A stretch of DNA of 64,000 nt, from positions 2,852,001 to 2,916,000 of the forward strand of contig NZ_CP119988.1 of NCBI RefSeq assembly GCF_029338515.1, in the 5' to 3' direction. This stretch comes from Haloglomus litoreum (GTDB taxonomy: Archaea > Halobacteriota > Halobacteria > Halobacteriales > Haloarculaceae). Made by a program: the position numbers and the translations under genes. The notes below the pieces were generated by a model. The model did no database searches. It was not told the origin of the DNA and was given only the letters and a program-made list of their open reading frames with translations. Within the stretch, counting starts at the first letter, position 1. Every line of letters starts with the position of its first letter. This document shows, in pieces, positions 49,831 through 51,336 of the stretch.

Positions 49831-51336
49831 TCAGCCCTTGATGTTGCAGACCGGGAACGTCCGCGCCACCCTGTCACCGATACCGAGCGCGTCGCTGACC
49901 CGAACGACCTCGTCGACGTCCTTGTAGACGCCGGGGGCCTCCTCGGCGATGGTGGCCCCCGAGGACGCCTTGACGTAGATGTGCTCCTGCTCGCGGAGGT
50001 CGTCCTGCACGTCGCCGCCCCAGTAGTCCTGTTTGGCCTGCGTCCGGCTCATCAGCCGTCCCGCGCCGTGGGCCGTCGACCCGAACGTCTCGCGCATGGA
50101 GTGCTCGCCGCCCCGCAGGACGTACGACCCCGCGCCCATGCTACCGGGGATGATGACCGGCTGGCCCACGTCCCGATGGGCCTTCGGAACCTCGGGGTTC
50201 CCCGCGGGGAACGCCCGCGTCGCGCCCTTCCGGTGGACGAACAGCTCGCGCTGCTCGGTGCCACCCGCGCCGTCGGGCACCTCGTGGACCTCGCGCTTCG
50301 CGATGTTGTGGGCCACGTCGTACAGCAGGTCCATCCCGAGGTCCTGCCAGTCGGCACCGAACACGTCGGCGAACACCTCGCGGGTGCGGTGGGTGATGAG
50401 CTGGCGGTTCACCCACGCGAAGTTGATGGCCGCGCACATCGCGCCGTAGTACTGCTCGGCCAGTTGCGAGCCGGCCGGCGCGGCCGCGAGTTCCCGGTCG
50501 GGCAACTGCGCGAGGAGTCCCTGGTGGGCCTGCTCGATGTCGCGCAGGTAGTCCGTGCAGACCTGGTGGCCCAGGCCCCGCGAGCCACAGTGGATGAGGA
50601 CGACCACCTGGTCCGGCTCCAGGCCGTACGCGTCGGCCACGTCCTCGCGGTAGATATCGGTGACGCGCTGGACCTCGAGGAAGTGGTTGCCCGAGCCGAG
50701 CGAGCCCAGCTGCGTCCGTCCGCGGTTCTTGGCCTTCTCCGACACCGCCGAGGGGTCCGCGTCGTGGCGCATCCCCTCGTCCTCGCAGTGGGTCAGGTCG
50801 TCCTCGACGGCGTAGCCGTGTTCGAGCGCCCAGTCGACGCCCCGCCGGAGGACCGACTCCACCGTCGACACGTCGCTCTCGACGACCCCGCCGCCGCCCA
50901 GCCCCGTCGGGACCGCGTCGAACAGCGCGTCGACGAGTTCCTCCTCGCGACCCTGGAGCTGTTCGTAAGAAATATCTGATTTTATCATCCTCACGCCGCA
51001 ATTGATATCATATCCGACAGCTCCAGGAGAAATGCAGCCATCTTCGGCATCTATCCCCGCGACACCACCGACCGGGAACCCGTACCCCTGGTGGCCGTCG
51101 GGCATGCAGATGGCGTACTTGCGGACGCCGGGGAGGTGGGTCGTGTTCCGGAGCTGCTGGAGCGTCTTGTCGTTCTTGATCTCCTCCAGTAGCGACCGGC
51201 TGGCGAGGATGCGGGCGGGCACGCGCATCCCCCCGGCCTCGTCACGGGGCATCTCCCAGACGAACTCCCGGCGCTTCTCCAGGGTGATACCGCCGGCCTC
51301 GAACGTCTCGGGGTCATCCGCGGGCGTCTCGCTCAT
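49831..51336 (-). CDS. rtcB: RNA-splicing ligase RtcB
   Basis: 501 residues from ATG 51336. The 3'-phosphate RNA ligase that joins tRNA exons (tRNA splicing) and repairs RNA, using Mn and GTP. Metal ligands are visible in YDINCGVRMI (Cys113 of the D-x-x-C site), CGSRGLGHQV and SMGAGSYVLRG; the His that becomes guanylated is near the C-terminal end (GAGRLMSR-AH region, TAHGAGRLMS). The codons at 50962-51054, exactly flanking Asn112-Cys113, are AT-ended and contrast with the rest of the gene; RtcB inteins known from Pyrococcus and Methanocaldococcus are inserted before this Cys (see findings). Confidence 0.96.
   Translation of the reverse strand: MSETPADDPETFEAGGITLEKRREFVWEMPRDEAGGMRVPARILASRSLLEEIKNDKTLQQLRNTTHLPGVRKYAICMPDGHQGYGFPVGGVAGIDAEDGCISPGAVGYDINCGVRMIKSDISYEQLQGREEELVDALFDAVPTGLGGGGVVESDVSTVESVLRRGVDWALEHGYAVEDDLTHCEDEGMRHDADPSAVSEKAKNRGRTQLGSLGSGNHFLEVQRVTDIYREDVADAYGLEPDQVVVLIHCGSRGLGHQVCTDYLRDIEQAHQGLLAQLPDRELAAAPAGSQLAEQYYGAMCAAINFAWVNRQLITHRTREVFADVFGADWQDLGMDLLYDVAHNIAKREVHEVPDGAGGTEQRELFVHRKGATRAFPAGNPEVPKAHRDVGQPVIIPGSMGAGSYVLRGGEHSMRETFGSTAHGAGRLMSRTQAKQDYWGGDVQDDLREQEHIYVKASSGATIAEEAPGVYKDVDEVVRVSDALGIGDRVARTFPVCNIKG

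Follow-up and report, generated by a model that had tools for sequence, protein, structure and literature searches.

Islands of A/T-ending codons at intein insertion sites in rtcB, polB and mcm of Halobacteria

The rtcB gene and its codon island

A stretch of 64,000 nucleotides from Haloglomus litoreum (positions 2,852,001 to 2,916,000 of contig NZ_CP119988.1; hereafter, the window) encodes an intein-free tRNA-splicing/RNA ligase RtcB, in which a short run of codons ending in A or T surrounds a vacant intein insertion point. The locus comprises the following features:

49831-51336, reverse strand: rtcB, tRNA-splicing/RNA ligase RtcB, intein-free, 501 aa encoded by 49834-51336, with the ATG at 51336 (Pfam RtcB, E 1.9e-162)
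50962-51054, reverse strand: island of A/T-ending codons, codons 95-125 (20 of 31 A/T-ending; 41.9% G+C)
51000-51001, reverse strand: junction of codons 112 (AAT, Asn) and 113 (TGC, Cys), a vacant intein insertion point at which the intein-bearing alleles L117-L156 and L052 are split
51001-51003, reverse strand: codon 112 (AAT), the -1 codon (AAT in 63 of 131 vacant rtcB alleles; A/T-ending in 6 of 40 occupied ones)
51017-51027, reverse strand: left arm, CCTGGAGCTGT, of an 11-nt perfect inverted repeat, within the island
50952-50962, reverse strand: right arm, ACAGCTCCAGG, of the same repeat, at the downstream edge of the island

The original prediction described a sharply bounded patch of 31 codons with 42% G+C, 20 of them ending in A or T, that extends 54 nt upstream and 39 nt downstream of the Asn112-Cys113 junction. 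The composition proved exact (0.419 G+C; 20/31), the extents are correct, and the sharp boundaries hold for the mean rtcB island, which covers about -8 to +11 codons around the insertion point. In a maximal-segment scan for A/T-ending codons (significance by permutation at a 0.01 threshold, with codons treated as independent), the best-scoring segment of the window gene comprised codons 90-125 (reaching 51069), outside of which the A/T-ending fraction is 0.049; its score was equalled by none of 10,000 codon permutations. Among the 60 gene-like ORFs of the window, this segment has the top score and is the sole strong one located away from a gene start. The 11-nt inverted repeat brackets most of the island and is the longest among 171 rtcB alleles, a length attained in none of 200 codon shuffles. 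Its right arm encodes an unusual Q-L-Q, the first residue of which is mostly acidic in relatives.

The two genomes of the same genus with rtcB (L112 and L113) are also intein-free and carry an A/T-rich patch (48% A/T-ending), which differs from the window patch by ~23-25% at the nucleotide level, compared with 9-10% elsewhere in the gene. For the sister species L112, nucleotide difference from the window is 24.7% inside the island and 9% outside, and amino acid identity is 83% and 96%, respectively. The outer left codons (95-99) are mostly common to the window and the same-genus patches whereas the centre differs, a pattern suggestive of two or more events in succession within the genus.

Intein sites in rtcB, polB and mcm

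The survey of rtcB inteins covered 391 Halobacteria, followed by a second pass over 48 genomes. An intein of ~475 aa was detected in about 40 of the 391, exactly at residues 112/113, the insertion point that had been predicted; the 41 intein-bearing alleles are split there by a gap of 1395-1440 nt. The window gene is thus a vacant intein site, homologous alleles holding an intein at the same codon junction. A profile search with one RtcB intein yielded Intein_splicing (E 4.6e-15) and a weak match, below the Pfam cut-off, to LAGLIDADG_3 (E 0.003), and GDG and FGAEM motifs are visible in five RtcB inteins. The host gene is the same as that of the intein-containing RtcB family NF038162 (NCBIfam), whose extein aligns, in its C-terminal part, with residues 112 onwards of the window protein, but the window allele lacks the intein. 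The usual junction of intein-bearing alleles is GAC ATC AAC / TGC GGC; patch-bearing alleles have junctions like GAT ATA AAT TGC GG. On the rtcB tree, the patch underwent at least 18 state changes, and intein occupancy at least 24.

The survey also turned up atypical rtcB loci. In G323, the gene lies in three overlapping pieces (C1:2463512-2465006), owing to frameshifts or assembly errors, and G171 contains a second, diverged copy with an in-frame TGA (C23:22044-23487). In genus g3 of the same family, many of the searched genomes (e.g., G016 and G051) had no rtcB match at E 1e-50, which suggests loss or replacement of rtcB in this genus.

A significant A/T-codon segment was present in 27 of 171 non-redundant halobacterial rtcB alleles, in 23 cases overlapping codons 112-113. 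The intein sites of polB and mcm were placed, to within a few codons, from the split points of intein-bearing alleles, and this placement agrees with the published account of haloarchaeal mcm (PMC10643990). For these two genes, the alleles were the best matches, hence biased to nearer relatives; intein sites were overlapped by 13 of the 14 significant segments in polB and by 27 of the 29 in mcm, where several intein sites lie within ~80 codons, for which the null model allows. When the three genes were pooled, 63 of 70 significant segments fell on intein sites, compared with 8.5 under random placement (maximum 21 in 20,000 runs); single-gene scans of polB and mcm gave nearly equal counts, and the gap reflects noise of the permutations at the 0.01 threshold. 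The control gene for aEF-2, which has no known inteins, showed no internal island in 30 alleles, its six significant segments all lying at the gene start, and 102 other genes yielded 12 significant segments, mostly near gene ends. The predicted link between the patch and the intein site is therefore strongly supported and extends beyond rtcB: that A/T-codon islands are tied to intein sites in three essential and unrelated host genes (rtcB, polB and mcm) across the class Halobacteria is well supported. A literature search within an open-access library found no previous account of codon islands where inteins insert.

The genome of the window itself contains further examples. Its polB (L258/L337, G000:C1:2654793-2657618) is intein-free, with an island at codons 612-652, the NSLYG site. 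In its mcm (L262/L263, G000:C1:3421994-3425482), the Walker-A lysine of GDPGTGK is followed by an intein that has a LAGLIDADG domain, and codons 385-432, a region of other, vacant mcm intein sites, form an A/T-codon island. Two extra family-B polymerase genes with identical scores (L259 and L260, G000:C1:1244084-1245172 and 1343823-1344911) are located ~100 kb apart and are perhaps a duplicated mobile element. In several genomes, intein-bearing polB alleles have a further split point at residues ~342-353 of P0002, distinct from SLYP, NSLYG and YGDTDS, and an island covers codons 329-345 of one intein-free polB allele (L364).

An internal promoter, mRNA structure or translational pausing at a conserved motif might keep such a region A/T-rich, with inteins merely sharing the motifs. 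A baseline A/T preference does exist in rtcB, where TGT, ATT/ATC and GGA are favoured at codons 101, 102 and 105 throughout the Halobacteria, in vacant and occupied alleles alike, as a separate and weak trend, and the RNA folding of the window island is mildly stable (z -1.8), if nothing remarkable. However, the islands are missing from most alleles and differ between sister species, a lineage restriction that already speaks against a conserved function; the motifs of aEF-2 have no island; and rtcB and several polB and mcm sites would each need an unrelated reason. We consider this explanation highly improbable. The original prediction held that the same A/T-ended codons in distant intein-free relatives would count against it; similar islands are indeed present there, but they sit exactly at the intein site and consist of different codons, so that the idea is extended rather than refuted.

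Divergence and sharing of the islands

In rtcB and at the NSLYG site of polB, where the main peak spans -11 to +8 codons, the A/T content of the mean island is highest, or nearly so, next to the insertion point. The mcm islands are broader, some reaching ~100 codons. Most of the change is synonymous: compared with the nearest relative, mcm islands show, on average, 8 percentage points less nucleotide similarity and 5 points more protein similarity than the rest of the gene. In mcm of L318 and L316, the island differs by 26% at the nucleotide level and encodes identical protein, whereas the rest differs by 13% in nucleotides and 13% in amino acids. Synonymous divergence of rtcB, which had been proposed as a check, is elevated at the site: all-pair values are saturated and rise there but mildly, and among close pairs, codons 112-118 are ~1.4-fold (vacant/vacant) or 2.35-fold (vacant/occupied) more divergent. 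As a signal in its own right, this measure was rejected, given that some other rtcB windows are equally divergent; the signal is the A/T-codon segment.

The A/T-rich haplotypes are partly common to different genera, and this cross-genus sharing is concentrated at intein sites; for example, polB alleles L338 and L341 are identical over 36 nt at the island and 80% identical over the rest. These short shared haplotypes support some inter-species gene conversion at the sites. They also fit the main idea of the original prediction, namely, that during homing the flank of an intein-bearing, low-GC donor was copied into the gene, where it persists as the patch after intein loss. Flank co-conversion is established for homing elements (PMC4059233) and has been reported for the codon adjoining the MCM-d intein (PMC10643990), and the islands resemble the tracts of co-converted exon sequence beside homing introns (summarised by Wu and Hao 2014, PMC4059233) in being short replaced stretches centred on the insertion point. 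For such tracts, however, the donor is normally identifiable, whereas no donor of the window island was found in 146 genomes of the family, 171 rtcB alleles, phages, plasmids or viral contigs, and the islands have codon style in common more than sequence. The sole match in the phage collection, AM491333 (BJ1 virus), was rejected as a viral donor and read as host DNA because host-type genes surround it and the record gives its sequence as an insertion carried by a mutant isolate. None of the intein-bearing rtcB alleles had the flank matching the patch that the prediction calls for, and these alleles are mostly GC-rich beside the junction. In a partial Mantel test, rtcB intein distance weakly tracked the 15 upstream codons (r 0.17, p 0.016), but the correlation was 0 downstream and control windows gave similar values, so that intein relatedness hardly predicts the flanks. 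Moreover, protein identity of ~90-100% inside most mcm islands is unlike import from distant low-GC archaea. Shared haplotypes speak for this idea, the low-GC donor and subsequent intein loss are weakened, and we regard it as quite unlikely.

The notion that islands occur only at vacant sites is contradicted by polB and mcm, where occupied alleles match vacant ones both in the frequency of islands and in the A/T-richness of the wider flanks; accordingly, an island marks the site rather than intein loss. The only codon that separates vacant from occupied alleles across four sites is the -1 codon, which is A/T-ending in 117 of 286 vacant and 8 of 63 occupied alleles (CMH p 1.2e-5, a figure that ignores kinship). 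Phylogenetic correction, applied to rtcB, retained the contrast (13 vs 2 nearest-neighbour pairs, p 0.007; phylogenetically independent pairs, median p 0.008). The overall mismatch to the occupied consensus at the core was not significantly higher in vacant rtcB alleles (p 0.07).

Mutagenic break repair offers another route to islands at occupied and vacant sites alike. If a cut vacant site were resected and filled by error-prone synthesis, a local mutation hotspot would arise in which purifying selection keeps the protein and codons drift at random towards A/T, with no need for selection of resistance. This would account for synonymous divergence with conserved protein, the A/T bias and the length of some islands, and the 11-nt inverted repeat of the window island is possibly a template-switch product. 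For the mitochondrial introns of fungi, Repar and Warnecke (2017, PMC5378118) have already put forward such repair; there, extra nucleotide diversity by the insertion points does not result from relaxed selection, and either mutagenic repair or foreign co-conversion is a candidate cause. The halobacterial islands are similar to those gradients in that extra diversity occurs in host coding sequence near insertion points of homing elements, but differ in that they involve inteins of archaeal chromosomal genes and are discrete, synonymous A/T islands that a single genome suffices to reveal, that mark vacant sites and that recur in three genes and many lineages. Against this mechanism, the deamination-type strand asymmetry expected of resected ends (C-to-T and G-to-A changes on either side of the cut) was not evident at 4-fold sites, where numbers are small; the edges of the rtcB islands are sharp and lack long tails; and neither the cross-genus haplotypes nor the -1 codon contrast is predicted. 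We judge mutagenic repair rather unlikely.

Proposed recoding of homing target sites

Our preferred explanation, to which we assign about an even chance, is that the patch is the footprint of a homing-endonuclease target site, probably a recoding that blocks cutting and spreads by break repair. Under this scenario, LAGLIDADG endonucleases of inteins in neighbouring cells would cut vacant alleles again and again, and alleles with several synonymous changes in the target would evade cutting and persist. Such escape alleles could then serve as the repair template for cut alleles, so that their haplotypes would spread by gene conversion, even across genera. Nearly every codon of the original sequence has G or C in last place, so that a synonymous escape would mostly bring in a final A or T. 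Recoding a GC-saturated gene is therefore enough to yield A/T-ending codons, and no low-GC donor has to be invoked. Endonucleases may in turn catch up and re-invade recoded sites, which would explain recoded flanks in occupied alleles.

In this explanation, the association of islands with intein sites is firm, and the driver is inferred. Selected recoding is favoured by the narrow width of the islands (LAGLIDADG enzymes recognise 14-40 bp; PMC8966425), their synonymous character, the -1 codon contrast and the shared haplotypes. The footprint is further backed by the location of the islands, their repeated gain and loss on the rtcB tree, their rapid divergence between sister species, and the presence of a LAGLIDADG intein in mcm of the window's own genome. 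An endonuclease-resistant allele, the second idea of the original prediction, fits the first three of these features and is, on this sequence evidence, a candidate rather than a proven state. Several observations weigh against the footprint. Some islands, with up to ~100 codons in mcm, far exceed the width of an endonuclease target. The window island includes amino acid changes as well, as its identity to the sister species indicates. Because occupied polB and mcm sites are as A/T-rich as vacant ones, recoding would be, at best, incomplete protection. Homing endonucleases tolerate changes at wobble positions (PMC3943268; PMC3024317), so that many changes would be needed for escape. The closest parallel is provided by MCM-d-resistant mcm alleles (Turgeman-Grott et al. 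2023, PMC10643990), where vacant and occupied haloarchaeal alleles also differ beside the insertion point; in that case, an amino acid (proline) blocks splicing, whereas the difference described here leaves the residue unaltered and would take effect on the DNA.

More broadly, and tentatively, Halobacteria may evade homing endonucleases by synonymous recoding, with the nuclease itself driving putative uncuttable haplotypes through populations and, by break repair, across genera; codon usage would then hold a class-wide record of gene-drive resistance, in which intein sites could be read without the intein. If so, A/T-codon islands would offer a simple way to detect intein sites, present or past, from codons. 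Resistance through synonymous change of the target is a central worry for engineered gene drives, and natural long-term examples are scarce. If recoded islands recur at vacant halobacterial sites, nature would have run the experiment many times independently, in a group that is genetically tractable (Haloferax); these cases could be used to examine whether DNA-level resistance to homing endonucleases evolves in hosts and whether it is spread by the nuclease.
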